A program made the translations under genes and the position numbers. Shown in pieces: positions 439 to 22,869 of a DNA stretch of 22,995 nt; position 1 is the stretch's first letter, and every line of letters starts with the position of its first letter. Origin of the DNA: a virus; IMG/VR virus record IMGVR_UViG_3300027704_000170, positions 1 to 22,995 of that record, one strand, 5' to 3'. The notes under the pieces were generated by a model. It did not search any database. It saw only the letters and a program-made list of their open reading frames with translations, and had not been told where the DNA came from.

Positions 439-908
439 TGAAATTAGAAGTATATAGATTCAATAAATCAAAAGAATCAACAAACGGAATCTTGTTTGAC
501 ATAACAAATGAAAAAAAATTTATGTGTTACACTCTGGAAGATGAACCAAGAAAAATCAAAGTAAAACATGAGACTTGTATTCCATCGGGTGAATATTGTC
601 TTGCATTGAAAAAGCATGGAAGATTGCATGATACATATCTTCACAGATTTGCTGATGTCCATGTTGGAATGATTGAAATTCTCAACGTGCCAAATTTTAC
701 AGATATTTTAATCCATTGCGGCAATACAGATGAAGACACTTCTGGTTGTTTATTAGTTGGAGACACACAAAAAAACAACAATATATCTGAGTCTGGTTTT
801 ATTGGTAAAAGTACTGTTGCATATTTTAGGATTTACAAAGCCATTTCTGATGCTTTAATGTCTGGAGAGCATTGCACACTTGTAATTACAAATGATATAA
901 ATATATGA
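438..908 (+). CDS. DUF5675-like protein
   Basis: A 156-residue protein. The chosen ATG at 438 overlaps the preceding stop (TAATG); an in-frame ATG at 405 would read through the end of the upstream gene and adds only unconserved residues. Recognisable features are an N-terminal strand (MKLEVYRF), a CYTLEDEPR stretch (30-38), IPSGEY (48-53), and an I-H-C-G-N motif (92-96) followed by T-S-G-C (101-104), the pattern I know from DUF5675. The spacing of His and Gly-Cys recalls the active site of L,D-transpeptidase (YkuD) enzymes, so a cell-wall role is possible, but this is inference. No signal peptide or membrane helix is visible and no holin lies beside it. Its TGA overlaps the next ATG (ATGA). 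Confidence 0.72.
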   Translation: MKLEVYRFNKSKESTNGILFDITNEKKFMCYTLEDEPRKIKVKHETCIPSGEYCLALKKHGRLHDTYLHRFADVHVGMIEILNVPNFTDILIHCGNTDEDTSGCLLVGDTQKNNNISESGFIGKSTVAYFRIYKAISDALMSGEHCTLVITNDINI

Positions 909-1312
909 GTGAACGTTCCAAAGCAAAAAATGCATGTGATAAAGCATTCAGCAGATTTGTGAGGTTGTCATGTGCAGATGAATATGGAATGATAAACTGC
1001 ATCACTTGTGACAAGCGCAAGATGTGGAATGAAGTTGATTGTGGTCACTTTCAAACCAGAGCAAAACTTTCAGTTAGATGGCTATATGAACCACCTTTGA
1101 TTAATGCATCTGCCCAGTGTAAAGGATGCAATATGAGTAATGGAGGACATTCGTATCAGTTCGGTAAGAAGATAGATGCTTTGTACGGCTCAGGGAGTGC
1201 TGATACAGTCGTTTTCATGTCTAATCAGATACGCAAGTACACAGTGCAAGAGTTAAGGGATATGGCAAGCTCTTTTGAAGCAAGAGCGAAAGCAATATTA
1301 AAAGAAATTTAA
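905..1312 (+). CDS. ninG: NinG/Rap-like recombination nuclease
   Basis: A 135-residue protein with the layout of lambda NinG (Rap), an endonuclease that cuts branched DNA such as Holliday junctions and aids recombination. Visible are an N-terminal basic helix (SERSKAKNACDKAF), a first metal-binding-type pair C-I-T-C (about residues 32-35), the hallmark D-C-G-H-F-Q-T-R (46-53) and a second pair C-K-G-C-N (73-77) followed by GGHSYQFG. This is the Cys/His arrangement of the zinc-containing HNH-like NinG fold. It is shorter than lambda NinG (about 200 residues), mostly at the N-terminus. The ATG overlaps the upstream TGA (ATGA), so it is probably translationally coupled. It would act in phage recombination or in resolving replicated concatemers before packaging. 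Confidence 0.85.
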   Translation: MSERSKAKNACDKAFSRFVRLSCADEYGMINCITCDKRKMWNEVDCGHFQTRAKLSVRWLYEPPLINASAQCKGCNMSNGGHSYQFGKKIDALYGSGSADTVVFMSNQIRKYTVQELRDMASSFEARAKAILKEI

Positions 1313-1873: not shown

Positions 1874-2198
1874 AAAAGTCGCAAAATTCACTGGCTTAAA
1901 AGCTGCTGTTGAATCCATCTTTGGAGAGGATTGTGGATGTAATGAAAGGAAAGAGAAATTGAATAAACTTTTTCCATTCAAAGCTCTGATGAGTAGTGAT
2001 GATCGTGCTCTATATGAAAAGCATTTGATTCACTGGAAGAAAGGAAAATCTGTGACAGCAACACAGCAACATCTGGCCATTGATATTTGGATCAGGAGCA
2101 CAAACAAGAAAAAGAAATTTTCAAGTTGCACATCTTGTGTCAGGAAATTCTTTGAGGATCTTGAAAAACTATATGAAAACAGCTGTGAAAATGAATAA
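1827..2198 (+). CDS. Small Cys-pair phage protein, unknown function
   Basis: A 123-residue protein from the ATG at 1827, which overlaps the end of the sigma-like gene; a GTG at 1818 would add three residues. The N-terminus is basic, followed by GLGDTIEKVAKFTGLK and E-D-C-G-C-N-E-R-K-E-K-L-N-K-L-F-P, a combination I recognise from uncharacterised proteins of Bacteroidota phages. A second Cys pair (CTSC, about residues 99-102) and a last Cys near the C-terminus suggest a zinc-binding site (CxC plus CxxC), which is inference. Its place between a sigma-like protein and the ParB-methyltransferase, with translational overlap on both sides, fits an accessory role in transcription or packaging, but no function can be assigned. 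Confidence 0.65.
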   Translation: MKSKNKPSKGLGDTIEKVAKFTGLKAAVESIFGEDCGCNERKEKLNKLFPFKALMSSDDRALYEKHLIHWKKGKSVTATQQHLAIDIWIRSTNKKKKFSSCTSCVRKFFEDLEKLYENSCENE

Positions 2199-3390
2199 AC
2201 CAATCAATACAATATTTGCTCATCCAAAGAATCCGCGTTTGATTCGCAATGAAAAATATCTGGAGCAAAAAAAGAGCATAGAGGAAACGCCTGAGATGAT
2301 GGATTTAAGGCCAGTGATAATTGATGAAGATGATATCATACTTGGAGGGCATCAAAGGTGGAGAGCATGCAAGGAATTAGGTTGGAAAGATGTTCCAGTG
2401 ATGCAATACACCAGAGAGAAACATTTGAAATCTGAATCATTCACTAAATTCAACAAAACATATGAGCTGGTTTGTGCTGAGATAGTAATCAAGGATAATA
2501 CACACTATGGAGAATTTGATTATGATATCCTTGCAAACGAATGGGATTACTTACCACTGACAGAGTATGGTGTTGCAGTCTGGGAAACTGAACCAGAAGA
2601 AGTTGAAGGATTGACAGATGAAGATGCAGTACCTGAAGCACCACAAGAACCGATAACTAAACTGGGTGACGTTTGGATACTTGGTGAACATCGGGTTATG
2701 TGTGGCGATTCTACGAGCAAAGAAGCGGTAGAGATTCTTATGGATGGGGAGAAGGCAGATATGGTTTTTACTGACCCACCTTATGGTATAGAATACAAAA
2801 GCAACTGGAAAAACAAAGACAGGGAGAAATTTAAAACTCTTAAAAACGACAATTTAATTTTAGACTTTAGGCACATATTAGATTCGTTTTGTAATGAGTT
2901 CTGCCCAATATACATATGGACATCACACCAAGTTTTCCAAATATGGAGAACGATGTATTCAGATATTTACAAGTCAACTATTATATGGTATAAGAAATTC
3001 GGGGGGATGGGAGATTTAAAAGCGGAATACGGACATAATTACGAGATGTGCCTATACTTAACAAAAAACAGAATAGAATTTGTATCAGATAGACCTAAAG
3101 CGGTTTGGGAAATAGGGGGAGATAGCCCTTCAAAATATCAACACCCAACACAAAAACCTGTTGAATTAGCAGAAACGGCTTTTTCACATCATAAGAAAGG
3201 CACAGTATTAGACCTATTCTTAGGTTCAGGTTCAACACTAATAGCAGCCGAGAAAACAAAGCGCAAATGTTACGGAATGGAATTAGACCCGAAATACTGC
3301 GATGTAATAGTAAAGCGATGGGAAGACTTTACTGGTAAAAAAGCACACCTTGAAGAAAACGAATTTGAAGTAATAACACAAGCGCACTGA
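2191..3390 (+). CDS. ParB-like domain fused to DNA (N6-adenine or N4-cytosine) methyltransferase
   Basis: A 399-residue two-domain protein. Residues 1-75 form a ParB/Srx-like domain (PINTIFAHPKNPR, then GGHQRWRA at 52-59). After an acidic Pro/Glu linker (about 131-158) comes a beta-class amino-methyltransferase: catalytic DPPY (195-198) precedes the SAM-binding region, with HPTQKP at 318-323 and DLFLGSGS at 341-348. No restriction partner is visible, so it is probably an orphan modification enzyme protecting phage DNA or influencing packaging. The ATG at 2191 overlaps the upstream stop by 8 bases; an ATG at 2173 is an alternative. Codon use changes inside the gene: from about 2780 leucine is almost always TTA or CTA, unlike the first third, suggesting a replaced methyltransferase half. 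Confidence 0.88.
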   Translation: MNKPINTIFAHPKNPRLIRNEKYLEQKKSIEETPEMMDLRPVIIDEDDIILGGHQRWRACKELGWKDVPVMQYTREKHLKSESFTKFNKTYELVCAEIVIKDNTHYGEFDYDILANEWDYLPLTEYGVAVWETEPEEVEGLTDEDAVPEAPQEPITKLGDVWILGEHRVMCGDSTSKEAVEILMDGEKADMVFTDPPYGIEYKSNWKNKDREKFKTLKNDNLILDFRHILDSFCNEFCPIYIWTSHQVFQIWRTMYSDIYKSTIIWYKKFGGMGDLKAEYGHNYEMCLYLTKNRIEFVSDRPKAVWEIGGDSPSKYQHPTQKPVELAETAFSHHKKGTVLDLFLGSGSTLIAAEKTKRKCYGMELDPKYCDVIVKRWEDFTGKKAHLEENEFEVITQAH

Positions 3391-3734
3391 TGGATAAAAC
3401 AGAACTTAAAAAGAAAGCAACACTTGAAGCTTTAGAGAAATCACTTGGTGTGGTCACTCAGGCATGTAAGATTGCAAGTATATCCAGAACACAATTTTAT
3501 CATTGGCTAAAAGATGACGCAGATTTCAAAGCTAAGACAGATGACATTGCTGATATTGCAATTGACTTTGCTGAGAGCAAACTTCATTCTCTTATTAGTC
3601 AAGAGAACGTACCAAGCACAATATTCTATCTCAAGACTAAAGGCAAAAAACGTGGATATGTAGAAACTCAAGATTTGACTATCTCAGAACCAAATAAAAA
3701 ACCAAGCTGGATCACAAGTGAAGAAGCAGAGTAA
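3390..3734 (+). CDS. terS: Terminase small subunit
   Basis: A 114-residue protein directly upstream of the large terminase gene, with ATG overlapping the methyltransferase TGA (TGATG). The N-terminal half contains a helix-turn-helix of the kind used by small terminases to recognise packaging sites: GVVTQACKIASISRTQFYHWLK (given here in two parts: GVVTQACKIAS, then ISRTQFYHWLK, about residues 20-41). The central helices (about 50-75: IAIDFAESKLHSLIS) fit the oligomerisation region, and the basic-to-acidic tail (TSEEAE) fits the segment contacting TerL. It would bind the phage pac or cos region and load the TerL motor. The array of CCCGTA repeats 3' of terL is one candidate target site, by position only. 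Confidence 0.78.
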   Translation: MDKTELKKKATLEALEKSLGVVTQACKIASISRTQFYHWLKDDADFKAKTDDIADIAIDFAESKLHSLISQENVPSTIFYLKTKGKKRGYVETQDLTISEPNKKPSWITSEEAE

Positions 3735-4878
3735 ATCATATTATGACTGCAAGAACTGTGATACACGTATTCAAGTGCATCAAGGTGGAACGAGATCAGG
3801 CAAGACATACTCCATATGTCAGGCATTGATTGAATGGTGCTCAGACAATCCCAATGCTGGTTGGGTAATTACAATCATCAGGAAAACAATGCCATCACTC
3901 AGAGCATCTGTGATGAGAGATTTCTTTCAAATACTGGAAGCAGAAGATTGGTATTCAGAAGCAAACCACAACAAATCAAGCTCTCAATACATTCTTTTTG
4001 GAAATGTCATTGAATTTGTTTCAATCGCAGAACCACAGCGCATCAGAGGCCGAAAAAGACACATTGCTTTTTTGAATGAAGCAAATGAATTAACCTTTGA
4101 AGATTTCACTCAGATAATTTTGAGAACATCAGAAATCATGATCATGGATTTTAATCCATCAGATGTATTTTCATGGATATATGACAAAGTAATGACAAGA
4201 GAAGATTGCAGTTTTTTTCAAACTACATATCTTGATAATCCATTCTTAGACGAAAACACAATAAAAGAGATTGAATACCTAAAATTAACAGATGCAAATT
4301 ACTGGAGAGTATTTGGACTTGGTGAACGTGGTATGAATGTTTCTGCAATCTTTCCATTCTTCAATCAAGTTGATAAAACTCCAGACAGAGCAAAATTCAT
4401 TTCATTTGGTTTAGATTGGGGATTCACAAACGATCCAAGCGCACTCATATCTGTGTATAAAGATGGTCTGGATTTATATGTTGAAGAACACTTGTATGAA
4501 ACTGGCCTGACAAATAATGATTTAATAAGAAAAATGAAAGATCTTGGAATTGAACGCCAAGAGATTATTGCAGATTCAGCCGAGCCGAAATCGGTAACTG
4601 AGCTTTCAAGAAATGGATTTTTAATCAAGGGCGCAAAGAAAGGGCCAGACAGCATCAGACTGGGGATTGACGTAATGAAACGCCACAGAATAAACATCAC
4701 AAAAGAAAGCACGAATCTAATTAAAGAGATGCAGTCATATAAGTGGAAAACAAACAGAGATGGAAATCAAATCAATGAACCAGAAGCAAATCAAAAGGAT
4801 CACGCAATTGATGCTTTCAGATATGTGTGTTTGAATAAACTCATGGAAAATTACTCAGGAAAATATTACATATCATGA
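3718..4878 (+). CDS. terL: Terminase large subunit (packaging ATPase and nuclease)
   Basis: A 386-residue PBSX/Terminase_3-type large terminase that drives DNA into the prohead and cuts it. The ATPase half shows Walker A GGTRSGKT (23-30), Walker B with catalytic Glu in HIAFLNEANE (115-124) and MDFNP (143-147) in the coupling region. The RNase H-like nuclease half shows the acidic residues in GLDWGFTNDP (D233), IIADSAEP (D286) and KDHAIDAFRY (D361, D365). Length is slightly below the usual 400-450. The GTG at 3718 is taken because Walker A lies only 22 codons downstream and no ATG precedes it; it overlaps terS by 17 bases. An unusual C-x-x-C (11-14) sits just before the ATPase core. The gene ends in front of the CCCGTA repeat gap. 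Confidence 0.95.
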   Translation: MKKQSKSYYDCKNCDTRIQVHQGGTRSGKTYSICQALIEWCSDNPNAGWVITIIRKTMPSLRASVMRDFFQILEAEDWYSEANHNKSSSQYILFGNVIEFVSIAEPQRIRGRKRHIAFLNEANELTFEDFTQIILRTSEIMIMDFNPSDVFSWIYDKVMTREDCSFFQTTYLDNPFLDENTIKEIEYLKLTDANYWRVFGLGERGMNVSAIFPFFNQVDKTPDRAKFISFGLDWGFTNDPSALISVYKDGLDLYVEEHLYETGLTNNDLIRKMKDLGIERQEIIADSAEPKSVTELSRNGFLIKGAKKGPDSIRLGIDVMKRHRINITKESTNLIKEMQSYKWKTNRDGNQINEPEANQKDHAIDAFRYVCLNKLMENYSGKYYIS

Positions 4879-14126: not shown

Positions 14127-14753
14127 ATGAGCAAAACAATAGACAAGATCAGAGGACTTTTGAACCTCCCAAACCTCACCAAATTCTATGCTGAAGCAAG
14201 ACTTGATGATGGTCGCTTAGTAGTAACAGAGGCCGAATCAATGGCTGTTGGTGTTGAGATTTCTGTGATGTCTGATGAAGGCAATGCAGATTATCTTGAT
14301 GACGGCACATATGCACTTGAAGATGGAACTGTTCTTGTTGTTGCTGAAGGTCGTATCACACAACTTGGAGAAGATGAACCAGAAGCGGAAGCAGAAGTGG
14401 AAGTGGAAGTTGAAATGGCTGAAGGTGATGAAGCAGATGTGCAAGATTGGGCTGGTATGGAGAAGCGTATCCAGAATCTTGAGGATGCTGTTGCAGATCT
14501 TAAAAGTGATAAGGTATCTGCTTATGAAGAAAAAGAAGAAGACGAAAAAATGTCTGAATTGGCTTCTGAAATCAACGCAGCATTTGAACACATGATGGAA
14601 CGTCTTTCAGCTATTGAAAACGAACCAGCATCAAATGGAGTGAGTCATTCTCCAACAAAAGGTAAAAATCAGGACATGGATCAAGAGACATTTTCTTCAT
14701 TGAAAACATCTGAAAGAGCACATGCAATTATTTCAAACTTCGCAAAAAACTAA
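14127..14753 (+). CDS. Putative scaffolding protein
   Basis: A 208-residue, very acidic protein between protease and capsid genes, the expected place for a scaffold. The N-terminal part (about 18-85) looks like a small beta barrel (FYAEARLDDGRLVVTEAES, then GTYALEDGTVLVVAEGRITQ); next is a run of alternating Glu with Ala or Val (about 88-98), then coiled coils (MEKRIQNLEDAVADLKSD; ELASEINAAFEHMMERLSAI) and a polar C-terminus (SSLKTSERAHAIISNFAKN) that may bind capsid. Such a fold order is seen in Bacteroidota phages. The Glu-rich run is encoded by short GAAGNG repeats that could vary in length. A 44-bp AT-rich gap precedes it; no clear promoter consensus is present there. Confidence 0.7.
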   Translation: MSKTIDKIRGLLNLPNLTKFYAEARLDDGRLVVTEAESMAVGVEISVMSDEGNADYLDDGTYALEDGTVLVVAEGRITQLGEDEPEAEAEVEVEVEMAEGDEADVQDWAGMEKRIQNLEDAVADLKSDKVSAYEEKEEDEKMSELASEINAAFEHMMERLSAIENEPASNGVSHSPTKGKNQDMDQETFSSLKTSERAHAIISNFAKN

Positions 14754-14754
14754 A

Positions 14755-15735
14755 ATGAAGTATATTAAAAAAACCTCATTCAATGCAGAGGATAAAAGCG
14801 TTGCAAACAAGCATGAATTTGCTGGGCCAACATTAACATCTCCAACATATGCTGGAGAGTTAGCATTGCCTTTTGTAAGTGCTGCTTTGAAAAGTGGTGC
14901 TACCTTAGCAAATGGATGGATCAGAACCATTGACAATGTATATTACAAAGCTGTAATAAACCAAATTGAAGGTGCTTCACTTATTGCTGATGCATCTTGT
15001 GATTTCGCTGATGGTGGATCTGTTACAATTACAGAGAACATTCTTGAAACAAAAGAACTAGCTGTAAATATTGACCTTTGCAAAAAGACAATGCGTCAAT
15101 CATGGTTAGCAGCTGAGACTGGAAACAGTTTAAACTCTGACATGCCAGTTGCATTCACTGATTATGTAATTGGTCACATTGCTGGATTAGTAGCTCAAGC
15201 AACTGAGAACTCAATCTGGCTTGGAGCTGCTGCAACTGGTGGACAGTTTGAAGGATTCTTAACAGCTACAACTGGAATATTCAATTTGGCTGGAAGTGGT
15301 GTAAATGCAGTAACTACAATCTCACCATACACGAAAGATATTATTGTTGTGGAAATGGAGAAGGTACTTGATGCTTGTTCATCAGAAGTATTAGCAAAGC
15401 CAGACTTCGCACTTTATGTCTCACCAAAATCATTATTCCTATACCAGCAGCATCTTGGAAAAGAAGGATATGTGAATGACTACCAAGCAAACGGAAAGCC
15501 ATCTAACATATACGGATATCCAATCTATGCATGTCCTGGAGTTCCAGACAATCAGATCATTGCTACATATGCAAGCAACCTTGTATTTGGATCTAACATC
15601 CAAACAAATATGACTGAAGTTCGTACAATAGATATGTCACCAATTGACGGATCTGACAACGTGCGTTTCATCATGCGTTATGCAGCTGGAGTTCAGGTTG
15701 GAGTAGGTGCTGATATCTACTGGGGTAAGGCTTAA
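14755..15735 (+). CDS. Major capsid protein
   Basis: A 326-residue protein in the size range of HK97-fold capsid proteins. The ATG at 14755 comes one base after the scaffold stop; an ATG at 14722 would read within the scaffold gene. After a basic, probably flexible N-terminus (MKYIKKTSFNAEDK) it runs AGELALPFVSAALKSGATLA, a central strand/helix region with DLCKKTMRQSW (helix after the E-loop-like part), DYVIGHIAGLVAQATENSIW (spine-type helix), then FALYVSPKSLFLYQQ, YGYPIYACPGVP and a C-terminal strand region FIMRYAAGVQVGVGADIYWG. The G-x-P-I-x-x-x-x-G-x-P turn and spine helix are typical of HK97-type capsids. Position after protease and scaffold-like genes supports the call. Confidence 0.85.
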   Translation: MKYIKKTSFNAEDKSVANKHEFAGPTLTSPTYAGELALPFVSAALKSGATLANGWIRTIDNVYYKAVINQIEGASLIADASCDFADGGSVTITENILETKELAVNIDLCKKTMRQSWLAAETGNSLNSDMPVAFTDYVIGHIAGLVAQATENSIWLGAAATGGQFEGFLTATTGIFNLAGSGVNAVTTISPYTKDIIVVEMEKVLDACSSEVLAKPDFALYVSPKSLFLYQQHLGKEGYVNDYQANGKPSNIYGYPIYACPGVPDNQIIATYASNLVFGSNIQTNMTEVRTIDMSPIDGSDNVRFIMRYAAGVQVGVGADIYWGKA

Positions 15736-15760: not shown

Positions 15761-16333
15761 ATGCCGTGTTTACTTACAAAAGCCATAGGACTAAACTGCA
15801 AAGACACAGTTGGTGGAATCAAGGCAATTTATTTTAGTGACTTTCAAGTGGCTGGATATTCTGAAATGACATTTGCTTCTGGTGTTTTAACTGGAATCGG
15901 TGTTGCTCAACAAGTGTTCAGATACGATGTGCAGCCAAATACAGCTTCACTGACTACAACTGTCACTAATGAACCAGCTGGATCTGCATCATTTGATTCA
16001 GCTCTTGAGATTACTTTAAATATCTTGAAGCAATCAACATCTGATGAATTGCAACTGTTAATCCAAACGAGAGTATTTGCGTACATCTTGGATGCGAATG
16101 ACAATGTGTACTGCATTGGACTTCAAAATGGATGCACAGTGACTGGTGGAACGTTTGTCACTGGTCAAGCTAGAGCTGACATGCAAGGTTATACACTAAC
16201 TGTGACAGCTGGTGAAGGTGAATATCCTCCATCTATTACAGCAAGTGATTCATCTGATGCGGCTGCATGGCCATTTGACGGTGTAAATGCTGGAGCTGGA
16301 GCTGCTGACTTTACTGTGACGAATCCAACATAG
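15761..16333 (+). CDS. Major tail tube protein
   Basis: A 190-residue protein with the pattern I recognise as the tail tube subunit of Bacteroidota phages: MPCLLTKAIGLNCKDTVGGI at the start, KAIYFSDF, a middle strand SFDSALEITLNILKQ, VFAYILDANDNVYCIGLQNG (about 106-125), TVTGGTFVTGQARADMQGYT (about 126-145) and a C-terminal tail with Ala and Gly. The order of strands around one central helix (SDELQLLI) fits the tail-tube fold. It assembles into the tube around the tape measure with help of the chaperones encoded at 5007-5710, about 10 kb upstream. A strong terminator follows immediately, so the gene ends a transcription unit that also contains the capsid gene, consistent with high expression. 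Confidence 0.8.
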   Translation: MPCLLTKAIGLNCKDTVGGIKAIYFSDFQVAGYSEMTFASGVLTGIGVAQQVFRYDVQPNTASLTTTVTNEPAGSASFDSALEITLNILKQSTSDELQLLIQTRVFAYILDANDNVYCIGLQNGCTVTGGTFVTGQARADMQGYTLTVTAGEGEYPPSITASDSSDAAAWPFDGVNAGAGAADFTVTNPT

Positions 16334-16356
16334 GATTTCAAATAACTAATTGAAAG

Positions 16357-16387
16357 AGGGGTGGCAATACGCCATCCCTTTTTTTTT
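16357..16387 (+). terminator. Rho-independent terminator after the tail tube gene
   Basis: A 9-bp stem (AGGGGTGGC at 16357-16365, pairing with GCCATCCCT at 16371-16379, one G-U pair) with a 5-base loop AATAC, followed by an unbroken T run 16379-16387 and preceded by AAA. It lies 24 bases after the tail tube stop and 23 bases before the modular protein start, so it probably limits read-through into the modular protein and portal genes. Confidence 0.9.
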
Positions 16388-16410: not shown

Positions 16411-19400
16411 ATGATTCAACTTACAAAAGGAACAAACACACTTGATATCAATCTCAGTGATTTCAGTGGTGCATCTGATGAGTTGGTTCAAAATGGGCAA
16501 TTCACTGACATTGGGCCAAACACAGTCAACAATGGTTCTTTCAATGAGACAGCAGCTGTCAATCTACTCAATCCAAACTTTAATGACATAGGATCTGAGC
16601 TTGTAACGAACGGAGATTTTAGTGCTGTTCCATTAGGTAGTGAGTTAATTCTTGACGGTAATTTTCCTTCACCAAATGAACGTTGGAGTAATGAAACGGG
16701 TTGGTCGATTGGAAGCAACGTGGCAAGTTATAACGGAACCTCTGCAAATAACGCCATATCGCAAAACAGAGGAGTCATTATTGCTGGTAAGACCTATCGC
16801 TTGTCTTTTACTGTTTCAAATTATCAAAGCGGAACTTTAGTTGGTGCATTAAGTAGTGGTTCTTTAACTGGAAACACTCCAGACATAACAGCAAACGGAG
16901 CGTATTCTTTTGATATTGTTTCAACTGGTGTCTTGTGTATTTTCAGAAGTACATCCAGTTTTCTTGGCTCAATCGGTAATGTATCAGTAAAAGAAGTACT
17001 CAACATTGTCACAAATGGTGACTTCAGTGAAATAGGAACGCAGCTTGTCACGAATGGTGACTTTAGTGGTGTTACTGAGTACGTTGGTACATGGTCAACA
17101 ATAGGCACAGGGTGGACTTTATCGGGGTCAAATTTAATAGGCTCATCAGGCACAACTGAAAACCTTCAAACTATTTTTGCCACCGCTGTTTCAAGAACTT
17201 TAAGGCTTTCTTATGAAATAACAAACTACAGTAGCGGACAAGTTGCGATGTTAATGGATGGGGAATCTAAAACCTTTGAAAGTGCAAACGGAATTTACAC
17301 CAGAATTATCACCACGACTTCACAAATTTTAGAAATAGACGGCAGAGATTCAGACCCATTTACAGGAACTATAACAAACATTTCTGTTAAAGAACTTGGC
17401 GAGGGGTGGACGGCAACAAATGCTGTGTTGTCTTTTGCAAATAGCCAGATGACGGTTGACGATTCGGGTGATGCGGGTGATGACTCTCGAGGTACTCAAA
17501 TTATTACAACTGAAGTAGGTAAAATTTACAATTTATCTTATAATAGAATTTCAACAACTGGGTTTTTTTATTTAGCTGTAGGAAGTAATGACACGGACAG
17601 CGATGGTTATAAAAATATATTTTACGAGAATTTAGGTGCATCAACGGGAGTGTACACGCTTCAATTTACGGCACTCAGCACAACAACTTACATAGGTTTA
17701 ATAACTTCAGGTATTAGTGCAAGTGTTTACTCTGATGTATCTGTTAAAGAGGTCGGACAGAATTGGACACCATCCACTAGTTTAGATGGGAATATTCAAT
17801 TTACTGCACAAGGTTTAAAGATTAGTAACGGAGCATCAAACGGACAGGCAAAAGTAACACAACCGTCAATATTTGAAAATGGCAAAACCTATAAATTCAA
17901 ATATAAGATAGTTGCATACAATGGTGGGGATATTGGTTTAGCTGGTGAATCTTCAGCCATGTCCAGAATCCCAGGTGACCATGTTGAATACCTTACAAGA
18001 TCAGGTGATACAACAGATTTTGTACTTGGTAAAGCAAATGATAATACTGATGTAACTGTAACAAACATCTCAGTTCAAGAGCTTGGAACGGATTGGACAC
18101 TTCAAGATGGTTGGAGTATTGGAGAAGATAAAGCGGTATGCGATGGCTCACAAACAGCTCAAAGTTCCTTATTCCAATTAGGAATTGTACCAAAATTCAA
18201 ATCTTATAAAGTCGTTTTTGATATTGTGGTAGATGCTGGTAGTATGATTGTCGCGGTAGGGGGTTCCAATGCACAGCCCACAATTACATCTACCAACACA
18301 TATACATATTACACACAAGCTACTCAAGGAGATCCTAATTTATATTTTTCTGCTCAGACTAATTTTGTTGGTTCAGTAACAAACGTAACAGCTAAGGAGG
18401 TCGGACAAAATTGGACAGTACAACAGCCAGCTGGACAATTGGTCACCTTTCCAAATAGCACACTGAAAATTGAATATGATTCAACACAGACGCAAGGATC
18501 AACTGGAGTGTATCAAGATATTCTAACGATTGGAAAGAATTACAAAATTGTTCTCAGTGTTATATTAGTTACTGGAACTTTCAAAATTCAGGTAGGAAGT
18601 AAACAAAAAGATATTACGACATCAGGCATCCATGAATTTTATACAGAAGCGGAAAGTGACAGATTATTTATTGTAAGGAGACAAAATTCTCTGAGCGTCA
18701 CAGCCGTTGTTGACACAGTATCAGTCACAGAACTTGATCCAAATTCTTACTGGAATATACCAGATCCAGCCACAACTCAAATTGCAACAAATAAAGTTGA
18801 GATAACAAATGGAATTGGTGCTGTGATTACTCAATCAGGAACGGAAAGCTCACAATATTTCAGGATGCAATTCACTGTTTTAGATTATGTTTCTGGAGGT
18901 GTTAAAGGCTTCGTTTCAAATAATCTTGCAAGCTCATATGCTGAAAGTGATGGAGTAAAAATACAATATATTCAAGGCGGTGGAAATGGAACTCTGTTTG
19001 CTTTGTTTTGTAATGCATTCACTGGAAACGTCACAAATATTCAACTCAATTTATTAGATCCCAATTCAAGATGGATTCCATATACAGTTGCAGCATCAAA
19101 AGTTGTTTTTAAATTTGCTGAAGTAGATCTTGAAATCAGTGCTCTTGGTGATGATGTTGGAATTATTCAAACTGGTATTATAAAACCAAAAAAAATATAT
19201 ATCATTAGCATCAGCATGAAAGCAACAGCTGCTTTAAATGTTGAGATTGCAACATCTACATTGTCAGTTATCAGTGAGGTGATTGCAACACAAGCCATCA
19301 CAACTTCATTTGTGGAGTATTCTTTTGAATTTATACCAACATCAACCACAACAAAAGATTTCTTGATTCATAGGTCTTTAGGATCTGGAAATGGTGAAAC

Positions 19401-19827
19401 AATTTCAATCAATTCTGTCTCAATAAATAGCGTTGATGAAAGTCAGTGGATTAATGATCCAGCATGGAATCCATTTGCAACTACATTGACCTTTGTACCT
19501 ACATTAACAGATGAATCAACCAACAACTCAAAGCAATTTACACTTGATACATCCATAACTGATGGCGGTTTTGATGGTCGTAGTTTACATGGTCAAGTTG
19601 TTGTTAATGATACACAAGCAGAAGCTCCAAATGCTGGAATCATATTCCTAAAACAACCAGAATTTTTGGAGGGATTTTATAGTGTAGAGATTCGTGGCTA
19701 TCTTGGCACATATTACAGAGTTCTTGGAAAAGGCATGGCACACCTTCAGAGAGCTTTAGGGGAGGACGGATACAACAGATTCGAATCATACAATGATAAA
19801 GTAACATACAAGGCTTATGAAGAATAA
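16411..19827 (+). CDS. Giant modular virion protein with tandem carbohydrate-binding-like domains
   Basis: A 1138-residue Ser/Thr/Gly-rich protein. Residues 1-20 (MIQLTKGTNTLDINLSDFSG) and about 1020-1138 look like two parts of a short Bacteroidota virion protein; between them lie about eight beta-sandwich modules of 105-125 residues (starts near 77, 211, 332, 452, 562, 668, 780 and 889). Most open with W-T or W-S and close with a short strand such as SVKELG or VKEVGQNW. Residues 24-90 hold five 12-16-residue copies of the opening motif (V-x-N-G-x-F-x), and 198-219 two more. Modules resemble galactose-binding-like/CBM folds; probable role is binding surface sugars of the host, though a head or tail decoration is equally possible. 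Codon use differs among modules. Its end overlaps the portal start by 11 bases. Confidence 0.72.
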   Translation: MIQLTKGTNTLDINLSDFSGASDELVQNGQFTDIGPNTVNNGSFNETAAVNLLNPNFNDIGSELVTNGDFSAVPLGSELILDGNFPSPNERWSNETGWSIGSNVASYNGTSANNAISQNRGVIIAGKTYRLSFTVSNYQSGTLVGALSSGSLTGNTPDITANGAYSFDIVSTGVLCIFRSTSSFLGSIGNVSVKEVLNIVTNGDFSEIGTQLVTNGDFSGVTEYVGTWSTIGTGWTLSGSNLIGSSGTTENLQTIFATAVSRTLRLSYEITNYSSGQVAMLMDGESKTFESANGIYTRIITTTSQILEIDGRDSDPFTGTITNISVKELGEGWTATNAVLSFANSQMTVDDSGDAGDDSRGTQIITTEVGKIYNLSYNRISTTGFFYLAVGSNDTDSDGYKNIFYENLGASTGVYTLQFTALSTTTYIGLITSGISASVYSDVSVKEVGQNWTPSTSLDGNIQFTAQGLKISNGASNGQAKVTQPSIFENGKTYKFKYKIVAYNGGDIGLAGESSAMSRIPGDHVEYLTRSGDTTDFVLGKANDNTDVTVTNISVQELGTDWTLQDGWSIGEDKAVCDGSQTAQSSLFQLGIVPKFKSYKVVFDIVVDAGSMIVAVGGSNAQPTITSTNTYTYYTQATQGDPNLYFSAQTNFVGSVTNVTAKEVGQNWTVQQPAGQLVTFPNSTLKIEYDSTQTQGSTGVYQDILTIGKNYKIVLSVILVTGTFKIQVGSKQKDITTSGIHEFYTEAESDRLFIVRRQNSLSVTAVVDTVSVTELDPNSYWNIPDPATTQIATNKVEITNGIGAVITQSGTESSQYFRMQFTVLDYVSGGVKGFVSNNLASSYAESDGVKIQYIQGGGNGTLFALFCNAFTGNVTNIQLNLLDPNSRWIPYTVAASKVVFKFAEVDLEISALGDDVGIIQTGIIKPKKIYIISISMKATAALNVEIATSTLSVISEVIATQAITTSFVEYSFEFIPTSTTTKDFLIHRSLGSGNGETISINSVSINSVDESQWINDPAWNPFATTLTFVPTLTDESTNNSKQFTLDTSITDGGFDGRSLHGQVVVNDTQAEAPNAGIIFLKQPEFLEGFYSVEIRGYLGTYYRVLGKGMAHLQRALGEDGYNRFESYNDKVTYKAYEE
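16597..17068 (+). repeat. Repeated module-opening motif (VTNGDFS)
   Basis: Near-identical 28-base units encode the (L)VTNGDFS motif at 16597-16624, 17002-17029 and 17041-17068; the last two match at 23 of 28 positions and are adjacent. More diverged protein-level copies lie at residues 24-61 and 77-92 of the same protein. They mark starts of beta modules and are likely recombination points. Confidence 0.65.
17746..18417 (+). repeat. Repeated module-junction DNA (EVGQNWT)
   Basis: The 24-base stretches at 17746-17769 and 18394-18417 agree at 22 positions and encode K-E-V-G-Q-N-W-T at two module borders 648 bases apart; a weaker copy at about 18078-18100 encodes ELGTDWT. The DNA is more alike than the modules between, which suggests recent recombination or gene conversion at the junctions. 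Confidence 0.65.
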
Positions 19828-21676
19828 TAAAAGCGAATTTTCAGTAATGGGAATGCCAGTGCACGACATTCCACAATTTGAGGAGGTACAAGGCAAGAAT
19901 TGGATCTCATATGGTTCAGATGATTGCTATGGTGATTATCTGGAGAGTTTATATCTTGGATCATCGATACATTCAGCAATTGTGAATGGTGTTGGAGCTA
20001 TGATATACGGCAAAGGATTGGATGCGGTTGAGAGAGATGATTCAGATGGCAATAAAGAGCAGTGGTTGAGACTTCAATCTCTATTGAATACCAGTGATGA
20101 TGAGTTGCTCAAGAAACTTGCTCTGGATTTGAAGTTGTATGGTCAATGTTATGTAAATACTATCTGGAACAAAGCGAGAACTTCAGTTGCTCAAATGAAA
20201 CACTTGCCAGTTCACACAATGAGAGCTGGAATTGCTGACAGTGAAGGAAAAATCCATGAATGGTATTATAAAAGCTCATGGAACAAATCAAATGACCGAG
20301 TGAGTCCAAATGTATTGAAGTCTTTTTCAAGTGAAGACAGAACAAATGCATCAACAGTGCTCCAAATCAAAAGATACTCACCTTCGTTTCACTATTACGG
20401 ACTTCCAGACAGCCAAGGATCAAACGGATATGTAGAACTGGACATCCAAGTGCAATCTTTTCATTTGAACAACATCTCTAACTCATTGATGCCCAGTATG
20501 ATGCTGAGTTTTTCCAATGGTATTCCAACAGATCAAGAGAGAGCAGATATTGAGCGCAAAGTGTATGAAAAATTCTCTGGAAGCAATAATGCTGGAAAGC
20601 TGTTGATTACGTTTAATGATGGGCCAGATACAGCTCCAAAGATTGAACCGATTGCAAGCAATGGATCAGATGATATGTACACATATTTGTCAGGGGAAAT
20701 CACAAACAAAGTTCTCACTGGTCACAGAATCACATCACCTCTTTTATTTGGTGTTTCTGGAAATTCAAATTGGGGTTCTTCGGCTGATGAATTAAATGAT
20801 TCATACAGTTTATTTCACAATACAGTTATTGAGGAATTTCAAGATATTTTGCTCAAAGGATTGAGTCCAGTATTTGTTGCAAATTCTATCAACCTTGATT
20901 TGTTTTTCATTCCTTCAAAACCAGCCAATTTCATAAATATTGATGAGGACACAACGGAGGTTGTAAAGCCAGTAAAAGAAGAAATGAAGTCAGCATCCTC
21001 TGAGGATAAAGAAGCGGTTGCAGAAGCTCTTATTGCGCTTGGTGAGGATGCACCTGATGGATATGAACTTATTGATGAGAGGAAAGTGGATTATGATGAC
21101 GAAGATCGGCTCGATGGAATGATTAATGGAGTGAATTTAGCTTCTGCAATTCCAGCCACAAGTGATCAATCAAAAGAACAAGACAATCCTCTGTTCAAAA
21201 TACGATATCAGTATGCTCCATTAAAGATTGATCAGATGCCATATCCAAGCAGAGATTTTTGTGTCAAGATGGTGAATGCTGCACGATTTTACACGAAAGA
21301 AAACATATACAAAGCTGGAAGAACATCTGTCAATGCTGGATGGGGGCCAAAGGGAGCATCTAAATATGATATATGGCTAAATAGCTGTGAATCAAATAGA
21401 TACGATATGTACAAAGGCGGTGGATCATGTGCTCATTATTGGAGCAGATTTACGTTCTTGAAAAAAGACAACAAAAAAATTACAGCAAAGCAAAGACAAG
21501 CCATAATAAATGCACTTGATCCAGCTGAAAGGAAAGCAGTTACACCAAAGAAGAATGATTCAAAGGTTGCAGAGAGGCCAAGAGACATGGATTATAGAGG
21601 GTTTTTACCTTCAAACAAAGCAGCGAAAAACATTAGAACTGATAGAAATCCAAAACCAAAAAAAGAAGACAATTAA
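19817..21676 (+). CDS. Portal protein with C-terminal YDIWL/KGGG domain
   Basis: A 619-residue protein. Residues 1-375 fit an HK97-type portal, the dodecameric ring at one capsid vertex through which DNA enters and leaves: G-K-N-W-I-S-Y-G (26-33), YLESLYLGSSIHSAIVNGV (41-59), IYGKGL (63-68), LKLYGQCYVNTIW (105-117), and ITSPLLFGVSG (305-315). An acidic linker (about 376-430) leads to a second domain (455-550): FKIRYQY, SRDFCVKMVNAARF, GWGPKGASKYDIWL (508-521) and YKGGGSCAHYWSRF (532-545). This domain is known to me from Bacteroidota phages but without function. Here about ten residues (NSCESNRYDM) separate YDIWL from YKGGG, which are usually contiguous. The C-terminus is basic. Start overlaps the modular gene by 11 bases. 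Confidence 0.85.
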   Translation: MKNNKSEFSVMGMPVHDIPQFEEVQGKNWISYGSDDCYGDYLESLYLGSSIHSAIVNGVGAMIYGKGLDAVERDDSDGNKEQWLRLQSLLNTSDDELLKKLALDLKLYGQCYVNTIWNKARTSVAQMKHLPVHTMRAGIADSEGKIHEWYYKSSWNKSNDRVSPNVLKSFSSEDRTNASTVLQIKRYSPSFHYYGLPDSQGSNGYVELDIQVQSFHLNNISNSLMPSMMLSFSNGIPTDQERADIERKVYEKFSGSNNAGKLLITFNDGPDTAPKIEPIASNGSDDMYTYLSGEITNKVLTGHRITSPLLFGVSGNSNWGSSADELNDSYSLFHNTVIEEFQDILLKGLSPVFVANSINLDLFFIPSKPANFINIDEDTTEVVKPVKEEMKSASSEDKEAVAEALIALGEDAPDGYELIDERKVDYDDEDRLDGMINGVNLASAIPATSDQSKEQDNPLFKIRYQYAPLKIDQMPYPSRDFCVKMVNAARFYTKENIYKAGRTSVNAGWGPKGASKYDIWLNSCESNRYDMYKGGGSCAHYWSRFTFLKKDNKKITAKQRQAIINALDPAERKAVTPKKNDSKVAERPRDMDYRGFLPSNKAAKNIRTDRNPKPKKEDN

Positions 21677-22257: not shown

Positions 22258-22397
22258 AACCAAACAAGCGCACCAGAGCTAATATCAGAAAATTAAAGAA
22301 ATATATTAAGAAACATGGCAACCAAGAAAGTTACACAATTAGCAACAGCGACAAGTGCAGATGCAGCGGATCTTGTGATGATTGTAGATGTAAGTGA
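22254..22397 (+). CDS. Possible tiny basic, Cys-rich protein
   Basis: A 47-residue ORF whose ATG forms ATGA with the connector stop. The first part is strongly basic (MKPNKRTRANIRKLKKYIKK); the last part has five Cys (CRCSGSCDDCRC) and could bind metal. It overlaps the start of the following gene by 83 bases in another frame, and the Cys-rich end lies wholly in that overlap, so it may be only a by-product of the other frame. The coupling and the non-overlapping basic part speak for translation; the overlap speaks against. No family recognised. Confidence 0.3.
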   Translation: MKPNKRTRANIRKLKKYIKKHGNQESYTISNSDKCRCSGSCDDCRCK

Positions 22398-22869
22398 CAC
22401 AGCGATGTCACCAGAGGGCACGAATAAAAAAATCACAAAAGCAAATCTGATAACTGGTGGAGGAAGCAGTGACGAATTTTTCACTGTGAATGGTGCTTGT
22501 TTTATTGGACAAACATCTGAAAGAGCAATTCCATTTGGATCTACAACAGCAGAATCTACAGTCTTCACATATACAAATGTTTTTGCAATACCTAAAAATT
22601 GTCGTTTGGTATCTGTCACATCTGCAAGTCAAGTGAATGGTGGATCTGTTGACTTGAAACCATACAAACCAACTTCAGATATCAACTTATCTAATTTTAC
22701 AGCACTTGGAACTGTAAACGTTGCAAGCCATACCAACTCAGGAACACACACATTCACCTTCAATACATCAACATTCGATTATGTTGTTGGTGACAGATTC
22801 GGAATTTCAGTCACTCCATCTTCAAACATGAGTGGATTCCGTTACACTTGTTTATTTAAAATGACATGA
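22315..22869 (+). CDS. Putative tail fibre / receptor-contact protein
   Basis: A 184-residue Ser/Thr/Asn-rich protein. The first 45 residues (VTQLATATSADAADLVMIVD, S-P-E-G-T-N-K-K-I-T-K-A-N-L-I) follow the N-terminal attachment motif seen in many phage fibre and spike proteins: K-V-x-x-L, A-x-D-x-x-x-I-V-D, then G-T-x-K-K-I-T-x-x-x-L. The remainder is predicted beta-rich (FTVNGACFIGQ, FTYTNVFAIPKNCRLVSVTS, HTFTFNTSTFDYVVGDRFGISVTP) and could be a trimeric tip domain. It is short for a fibre, so it may be a decoration or a fibre adaptor. Its TGA overlaps the next start (ATGA). The function is inferred from the N-terminal motif and composition. Confidence 0.55.
   Translation: MATKKVTQLATATSADAADLVMIVDVSDTAMSPEGTNKKITKANLITGGGSSDEFFTVNGACFIGQTSERAIPFGSTTAESTVFTYTNVFAIPKNCRLVSVTSASQVNGGSVDLKPYKPTSDINLSNFTALGTVNVASHTNSGTHTFTFNTSTFDYVVGDRFGISVTPSSNMSGFRYTCLFKMT

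Follow-up and report, generated by a model that had tools for sequence, protein, structure and literature searches.

What is the long protein encoded between the capsid and portal genes of this phage, and how did the repeated domains that separate its two ends come to lie there? The window, i.e. the whole stretch of 22,995 nucleotides that was analysed (IMG/VR virus record IMGVR_UViG_3300027704_000170), encodes this protein, hereafter X (Table 1). An earlier note had described it as a small virion protein apparently interrupted by sugar-binding-like modules. The ORF and the ladder of modules were confirmed, and the finding proved larger than described: further carrier genes, module exchange and ordered seams add to what the note had reported.

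A module array inserted into a small protein

In X, a small protein, an insert of about 1000 residues separates the first strand from the remainder; it is made of a short-repeat leader and eight tandem modules. The earlier note had counted about eight modules of 105-125 residues: the number stood, the lengths being in fact 106-133. It was also right about the two-part ends, which comprise 17 and 113 residues (LTFVP starts at residue 1026) instead of 18 and 115, and its YxxYxxxxxYxxY tail is matched only approximately by the window sequence (YNRFESYNDKVTYKAYEE). A module profile, built partly from the window modules themselves (m1 and m3-m6 were in the training alignment), retrieves seven of the eight with E values from 5e-35 to 3.5e-6; m8, a divergent member, is not seen by this profile at E 1e-2.

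Table 1. Features of X and of its neighbourhood in the window
Feature	Position	Strand	Basis or remark
Major capsid protein (context)	14722..15735	+	phrog_11320 2.6e-26; phrog_1623 4.4e-11
p190, conserved, just upstream of X (context)	15761..16333	+	phrog_19091 4.9e-23
ORF of X	16411-19827	+	1138 aa (translation)
X N-terminal strand, residues 1-17, MIQLTKGTNTLDINLSD	16411..16461	+	By-eye alignment with short orthologs L012/L015
Leader, residues 18-84, about five ELVTNGDFSxIG-like copies, insert start	16462..16662	+	Translation
m1 (85-196)	16663..16998	+	HMM E 1.7e-24 on identical protein in L001
m2 with short leader (197-329)	16999..17397	+	HMM E 5.0e-12
Seam K (SVKELGEGWTA), m2/m3	17383..17415	+	
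m3 (330-448)	17398..17754	+	HMM E 7.6e-11
Seam V (SVKEVGQNWTP), m3/m4	17740..17772	+	
m4 (449-558)	17755..18084	+	HMM E 2.1e-15
Seam Q (SVQELGTDWTL), m4/m5, opens cassette shared with L125	18070..18102	+	
m5 (559-664)	18085..18402	+	HMM E 5.0e-35; AlphaFold2 pLDDT 92.9, CBM-like beta-sandwich
Seam V (TAKEVGQNWTV), m5/m6	18388..18420	+	
m6 (665-775)	18403..18735	+	HMM E 1.7e-18; 61-62% aa identity to L006 m5, L013 m4
Seam D (DPNSYW), m6/m7	18736..18753	+	
m7 (776-882)	18736..19056	+	HMM E 3.5e-06
Seam D (DPNSRW), m7/m8	19057..19074	+	
m8 (883-1008), conserved last module	19057..19434	+	51-53% aa identity to relatives' last module
Linker DESQWINDPAWNPFATT, residues 1009-1025, back into base protein	19435..19485	+	Conserved in relatives
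X C-terminal part, residues 1026-1138 + stop	19486..19827	+	63-82% identity to relatives including short L011/L012
Portal protein, overlaps X end (context)	19817..21676	+	phrog_33693 1.9e-94; PF04860 3.1e-12

The array is an insertion relative to short alleles of X. In related phage contigs (labelled L001, L006, L012 and so on), as in the window, the gene lies between a p190 homologue, which adjoins it, and the portal gene. In this same slot, close relatives have an uninterrupted X of 136-139 aa, and other relatives hold four to six modules. The short forms (139 aa in L011/L012, 136 aa in L014-L016) are flanked by the p190 homologue and by a portal with 84-85% identity, and the C-terminal part of the window X is 63% identical to that of L011/L012. 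When the DNA of the long form from L006 is aligned with the short form from L012, identity is 84% up to codon 16 and 87% again from about codon 803, about 2.36 kb being exclusive to the long form; for the window, homology with L012 restarts at position 19503. The short family described in the earlier note is real (MIQLTRG..., MIQITKGTTNNVALTLTEK..., 132-136 aa), and the lack of a short homologue, which would have refuted its reading, is not what was found: three kinds of carrier gene have alleles without the insert. An assembly chimera or artefact is unlikely, since a longer IMG/VR record (possibly from the same sample) contains the window sequence again at 99.97% and since relatives' arrays reappear in independent records of different samples (identical in L010 and L019, near-identical in L006 and L018 and in L008 and L021).

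X is likely a virion protein, as inferred from its position between capsid and portal genes in the absence of particle data, and its probable site, likewise inferred, is the head-neck. The capsid gene also matches Phage_capsid at a sub-cut-off E value of 3.4e-4. The whole X protein has no family in PHROGs or Pfam, its joined ends have none in PHROGs, and a PDB profile search with the base part gave chance-level matches only. The model of a short X ortholog is all-beta and poor (mean pLDDT 58); its top structural match has a Z of 6.3, the fold search being uninformative, and only weak structural similarity links it to a Lactococcus neck-passage protein. Because this base model is poor, the folding of the joined ends into one domain and the place of X in the virion remain unsettled.

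Module exchange between carrier genes, and typed seams

Module arrays are present in unrelated carrier genes. Related arrays follow the N-terminus of a positional equivalent of X and that of a tail-completion protein (PF11367; 7.1e-8 and 33.1 bits in L126, 6.4e-6 and 26.7 bits in L134, for a cut-off of 24.5 bits), and a similar short-repeat leader occurs in relatives and in these other carrier proteins. Both additional carriers have uninterrupted short relatives. For instance, the insert-free allele of the PF11367 carrier in L220 (130 aa) shares 82% identity with the tail part of the query, and its flanks align with those of the long form in L217 at 84% and 81% identity.

Furthermore, modules are transferred between phages as cassettes of about 300-430 nt. 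One cassette is 93.3% identical in DNA over 433 nt between L129 and L006, whose portals share only 44% of their amino acids. Module m5 of the window is 86.7% identical over 324 nt to its counterpart in L125 (portals 48.6% identical in amino acids) and 79.8% over 342 nt to a module of the PF11367 protein of L126. Between L006 and L008, the flanking DNA is 94-98% identical and the inner modules are barely alignable, chiefly as islands of 30-60 nt at the junctions. Over all arrays compared, 29 of 30 pairs of same-slot modules show an identity of only 26-38%. Identity is high between proteins (147 module pairs at 70% or more, some being the same array in sister phages) and low within them (below 50% in 115 of 116 matching pairs), which argues that modules were acquired from a pool and not recently duplicated in tandem. 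The phage also encodes a NinG/Rap-like DNA-junction endonuclease, which we count in favour of exchange.

The junctions between modules, or seams, are typed and ordered, each type carrying its own DNA. Their order across arrays is concordant in 113 pairs and discordant in 4, a result reached by none of 20,000 shuffles; these overstate independence because many arrays share ancestry, and counts per gene are approximate, L138 having been grouped with X though its base protein differs. Seams of 33 nt are 83% identical at the same rank versus 56% at other ranks (0 of 20,000 permutations). Where the amino acid is identical, the codon is also identical in 79.5% of cases for the same seam type across carrier genes, versus 52-54% for different seam types in different arrays and 49% inside modules. 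An exact search for the Q seam in 2.9 million viral contigs gave 19 matches, one per contig, all in frame in module-array ORFs and 18 of them coinciding with a called module end. A search for promoters yielded no excess over shuffles. Several observations stand against strict ordering: the window array itself places V before Q; the same module type is found in L007 m2, L010 m1 and L017 m5, as well as in L008 m5 and L013 m2, so that slots are loose; and between L138 and L017 one cassette changed slot without its own seam, which speaks against seam-bound exchange.

The seams might be merely the least variable strand-turn, their DNA likeness and order coming from the recent shared ancestry of a whole array that passed from gene to gene; they would then play no part in exchange. 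We consider this rather improbable without being able to set it aside, since the seam does correspond to the final strand and initial turn in the m5 model, the arrays do share ancestry and some modules switch slot without their seam. However, type-specific synonymous codons are kept across carrier genes and between phages whose portals are 44-49% identical, with the intervening modules replaced. Because synonymous seam codons were retained while the modules between them were replaced, the breakpoints must lie at or beside the seams.

Fold of the modules and possible sugar binding

The modules are probably CBM-like, sugar-gripping domains, a view that rests on structure prediction with no binding data. 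The one module that was modelled (m5) gave a confident CBM beta-sandwich; its best Foldseek match is a porphyran-binding CBM (8xmz, E 6e-5), CBM4 being found at 1.6e-4, and its structural Z scores are 11.4 for the porphyran-binding CBM, 10.8 for CBM4 and 10.5 for CBM16. A match to a non-binding fold, which would have told against the earlier note, was thus not obtained for the module tested. The module profile also reaches a GH10 CBM at E 0.01. No BACON or Ig-like Pfam family was found at E<=1 for the window protein, nor does one figure in the family listing of 23 modules.

The modules could instead be structural spacers or shields (stalks, decoration) that bind no glycan, their turnover reflecting neutral drift or escape from surface recognition. 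A CBM-like fold alone proves no binding and is shared by proteins with non-glycan ligands, for example the ligand-binding domains of Eph receptors and meprin. Moreover, no module passes the curated Pfam CBM cut-off, the best match being CBM_4_9 at E 0.058 for one of 23 modules. Nevertheless, true CBMs dominate the top Foldseek matches and the same pool was captured repeatedly by several carrier genes, which suggests selection for module function; we therefore regard the spacer hypothesis as unlikely.

The source of the modules in bacteria was not identified, since the profile gave only eight matches, mostly weak, across 199 genomes belonging to a single bacterial family; the absence of profile matches in six host-like assemblies is uninformative alone. 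Among the isolated phages of a phage collection, tblastn with the window protein found no module match at E 0.01, and a marine module protein matched Nonlabens phages only over 50 residues that do not belong to a module.

A proposed exchangeable adhesion array and its relation to known systems

The explanation that we favour, and hold to be reasonably probable, is that X carries an adhesion array whose modules are exchanged and re-assorted, with recombination taking place at or near the seams. The loop after the first strand of X would hold the CBM-like modules, so that every copy of the protein would bear a flexible adhesive string. This string may provide weak, multivalent attachment to polysaccharides on or around marine Bacteroidota-like hosts, as inferred from the fold and the phage relatives. 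Its content turns over rapidly, single modules being replaced from a pool common to many phages and several virion genes. Exchange is demonstrated; its route through conserved seams of about 25-30 nt, like the virion location and glycan binding, is inferred. Since seam types differ within an array and are near-identical between arrays, exchange would mostly remain in register, and the loss of internal modules would be disfavoured. Only tentatively can it be proposed that the type-specific seams act as addresses for in-register swaps of cassettes between genomes and virion genes, and that their differences within an array prevent its collapse by internal recombination.

Diversification might also be targeted, either through a diversity-generating retroelement or through a site-specific recombinase that uses the seams; this would account for variation being limited to a single region whose borders are sharp and conserved. 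It appears very improbable, as whole modules are replaced instead of scattered substitutions and the window record, together with seven related contigs, yielded no PF00078 reverse transcriptase (these contigs are incomplete, and site-specific recombinases were outside the search). That the array is old and vertically inherited, its modules diverging fast by selected point mutation between fold-constrained seams, is scarcely credible: the order and sequence of the seams are kept, but so are their synonymous positions, same-slot modules are no closer than different-slot ones (median 0.31 vs 0.29) between flanks 82-98% identical in DNA, and distant phages and unrelated genes share near-identical modules.

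Tandem adhesion domains are already known in phages, mostly in tail-region genes. BACON arrays of crAss-like and related gut phages are likewise tandem, carbohydrate-linked beta-sandwiches in Bacteroidota phages, and their single domains were horizontally transferred in two lineages (PMC6949934). They consist of another domain sited in tail-region ORFs, not within a small protein, and the portions of that report available to us mention no DNA-typed ordered junctions, unlike the window arrays. According to a secondary account, the Ig-like domains of tailed phages are likewise accessory beta domains that spread horizontally to many unrelated virion proteins (Fraser 2006, via PMC10276861); here, the fold family differs, and up to eight modules with shared ordered seams follow the N-terminus. 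Ordered seams are reported nowhere in the literature searched. Here, one module pool is common to several unrelated small virion genes and inserted behind their N-termini, with junction DNA conserved by type and order while modules turn over. If seams guide exchange, this would be a natural, rapid and frame-preserving re-assortment of binding domains. Glycan recognition is thereby indicated as a main evolutionary axis of uncultured marine Bacteroidota phages.

CBM4/CBM16/CBM22-type and porphyran-binding CBMs (8xmz, 1gui, 2zex, 4qpw) have the same fold as the modules, whereas those of the window are shorter (about 106 aa), phage-borne and tandem, and lack binding data. The neck-passage proteins of Lactococcus phages and the adaptor of roseophage R4C are neck or adaptor proteins with accessory carbohydrate-binding or Ig-like domains (PMC10684548, PMC10276861); they show one accessory domain or C-terminal exchange, whereas X has an internal multi-module array. 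Lastly, the tail-completion gp17 family (PF11367) is a second carrier of the same arrays, on a base protein unrelated to X.

Short and module-bearing forms of the base protein

The ORF located between the genes of p190, a conserved protein of unknown function, and of the portal encodes 1138 aa and matches no PHROG or Pfam family. The earlier note viewed its product as a small, likely virion protein (X) whose two ends enclose about eight tandem modules, and this layout is borne out by the translation: seven modules were recovered with a profile (E 5e-35 to 3.5e-6) trained partly on the window's own modules, and the eighth (m8) belongs to a divergent type kept as last module in relatives (51-53% identity). 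About five repeats in the preceding leader look like a module's first strand and may be remnants of modules that have been lost.

Location of X, its parts and other features of the window
Feature	Window positions	Residues of X	Remarks
NinG/Rap-like DNA-junction endonuclease	905-1312		phrog_5034 1.6e-19
ParB-like domain fused to DNA methyltransferase	2080-3390		phrog_498 1.1e-88; ParB-like matches
Major capsid protein	14722-15735		neighbour of X
p190 (190 aa)	15761-16333		neighbour of X
Terminator-like hairpin and T run	16352-16384		14 pairs; just upstream of the X start codon
X ORF	16411-19827 (+)		
N-terminal strand		1-17	
Leader	16462-16662	18-84	short ELVTNGDFS-like repeats
Eight modules, then linker			106-133 residues each; between leader and C-terminal part
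C-terminal part		from 1026	
Portal	19817-21676		neighbour of X
184-aa ORF	22315-22869		weak Lectin_like match (E 0.062); after portal and DUF6712 genes

Among the 24 loci found by a portal search, the p190-portal slot is occupied by a protein of 139 aa (L011/L012) or 136 aa (L014-L016), which supplies the short uninterrupted homologue supposed in the earlier note; in other relatives the same slot holds 670-927 aa, and in the window's sister contig 1138 aa. For instance, the DNA of the long form of L006 aligns with the short one of L012 at 84% up to codon 16 and again at 87% from about codon 803. Short proteins (116-196 aa) also fill this slot in more distant phages and in assembly contigs of Bacteroidota. 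The short family described in that note does exist (MIQLTRG/MIQITKGTT..., 132-136 aa) and was reached by tblastn via X2, the positional equivalent of X. X and X2 are equated by slot and neighbours, no direct sequence similarity having been shown. The model of the short base protein is all-beta, and in it the insert would enter at a loop that precedes residue 26, but the model is poor (pLDDT 58), so that the fold of the protein and its place in the particle are only tentative.

Furthermore, X2 comes in a long (407-962 aa) and a short (155-158 aa) version, and the PF11367 tail-completion family (gp17) follows the same pattern as X, with carriers of 259-863 aa versus 130 aa (L220); the flanks of the short L220 align with those of the long L217 at 84% and 81%. 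ConA-like proteins and large proteins of the tail region contain modules as well. L022 has a short X (129 aa), and its modules are found in a ConA-like gene after the portal; L023, which starts at the portal, has a four-module ConA-like gene (2657-4492). L241 carries two adjacent short X2-type genes (2272-2775, 167 aa; 2809-3276, 155 aa) between a p190 homologue and the portal; such a duplicated carrier might be an intermediate that precedes the insertion of modules.

Fold and possible role of the modules

The model of the fifth module (m5), built with 71 aligned modules, is all beta (pLDDT 92.9, pTM 0.85). Foldseek matched it to a porphyran-binding CBM (8xmz, E 6e-5), CBM4 (1gui, 1.6e-4), a hyaluronan-binding CBM and CBM16, and VIA-align gave Z scores of 11.4 for 8xmz (2.2 A, 102 residues), 10.8 for CBM4 and 10.5 for CBM16. 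A PDB search with the module profile retrieved GH10-associated CBMs (E 0.01); no module reached the Pfam CBM cut-off. Related viral models include a Cellulophaga phage phi10:1 protein named structural protein and a Lactococcus neck passage protein. From the fold, the phage relatives and the position of the gene we infer that a string of modules projecting from a head-neck protein may serve multivalent attachment to polysaccharides; that the modules act as spacers or shields is not excluded.

Exchange of modules between phages and carrier genes

The flanking DNA of L006 and L008 is 94-98% identical, yet alignment is lost over about residues 196-652, where only a 252-nt stretch (67%) and junction islands of 30-60 nt still match. 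In five relatives, same-slot modules share 26-38% identity in 29 of 30 comparisons, and one module type was found in different slots. A comparison of 271 distinct modules gave 116 matching pairs within a protein, of which 115 lie below 50% identity, whereas 147 pairs between proteins, sister phages included, reach at least 70%.

Moreover, near-identical modules occur in distant phages. L129 and L006 have in common a 433-nt stretch covering m1 (93.3% DNA identity); the capsid and portal of L129 are 34% and 44% identical to those of the window at the amino acid level. Likewise, m5 is common to L125 and the window (86.7% over 324 nt; portals 48.6%). A module of L126, 79.8% identical to m5 of the window over 342 nt, lies inside a different protein, the PF11367 tail-completion protein; sample 3300006947 is the source of both L126 and the window's sister contig.

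The best-supported explanation is that recombination replaces modules one at a time and breaks at or next to the module junctions (seams). Incoming modules would be drawn from a pool common to phages and carrier genes. The NinG/Rap-like endonuclease is only suggestive of a possible recombination helper. The variation pattern is not that of point-like hypermutation, and a search of eight contigs yielded no reverse transcriptase.

Ordered seams

Five seam types were distinguished: K ([KE]ELGxDW), Q (QELGEGW), V ([KQ]EVGQDW), I (EIATSY) and D (DPNxYW). Of the 117 ordered pairs in 34 arrays of three carrier genes, 113 follow K<Q<(V or I)<D (L138 being counted with X despite its different base), a score that none of 20,000 shuffles matched. 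Seam DNA is 89% identical within a type across different carrier genes versus 73% between types; codon agreement at shared amino acids is 79.5% within types, 52-54% between types in different arrays and 49% inside modules. Same-rank seams in five relatives are 82.7% identical, versus 55.6% for other ranks (0/20,000 permutations). Since the types were set by eye after viewing the data, these tests describe a pattern and confirm no prediction, and the permutation figures overstate independence because arrays share ancestry. The sole check on sequence outside the type definition is an exact-pattern scan of 2.9 million viral contigs, in which a 24-nt Q-seam pattern occurred once in each of 19 stretches, mostly already-known loci. 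Every one lies in frame within an ORF that carries modules, 18 of the 19 at a called module end, and they are distributed over X, X2, gp17 and further carriers.

We infer that typed seams would help exchange to stay in register and make internal deletions less likely. This rule is not strict: slot changes are seen. In the window's own array, whose seams are more diverged, V precedes Q, against the usual order.

The closest known kinds are BACON arrays (PMC6949934), promiscuous Ig-like domains, neck proteins that bear accessory binding domains (PMC10276861, PMC10684548) and modular adhesins of gut phages (PMC13370021). In the open-licence papers searched we found no description of DNA-typed, ordered junctions, nor of a single module pool inserted behind the N-termini of several small virion proteins, which is only weak evidence of novelty.

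Arrays of ConA-like genes (L154, L161, L187, L197, L023, L199) also have ordered, codon-distinct seams, with REVGQDW then KEVGQNW or KEVGMDW, or CVEVGQDW then KEVGMDW; the ordered arrangement may therefore also apply to a further class of carrier.
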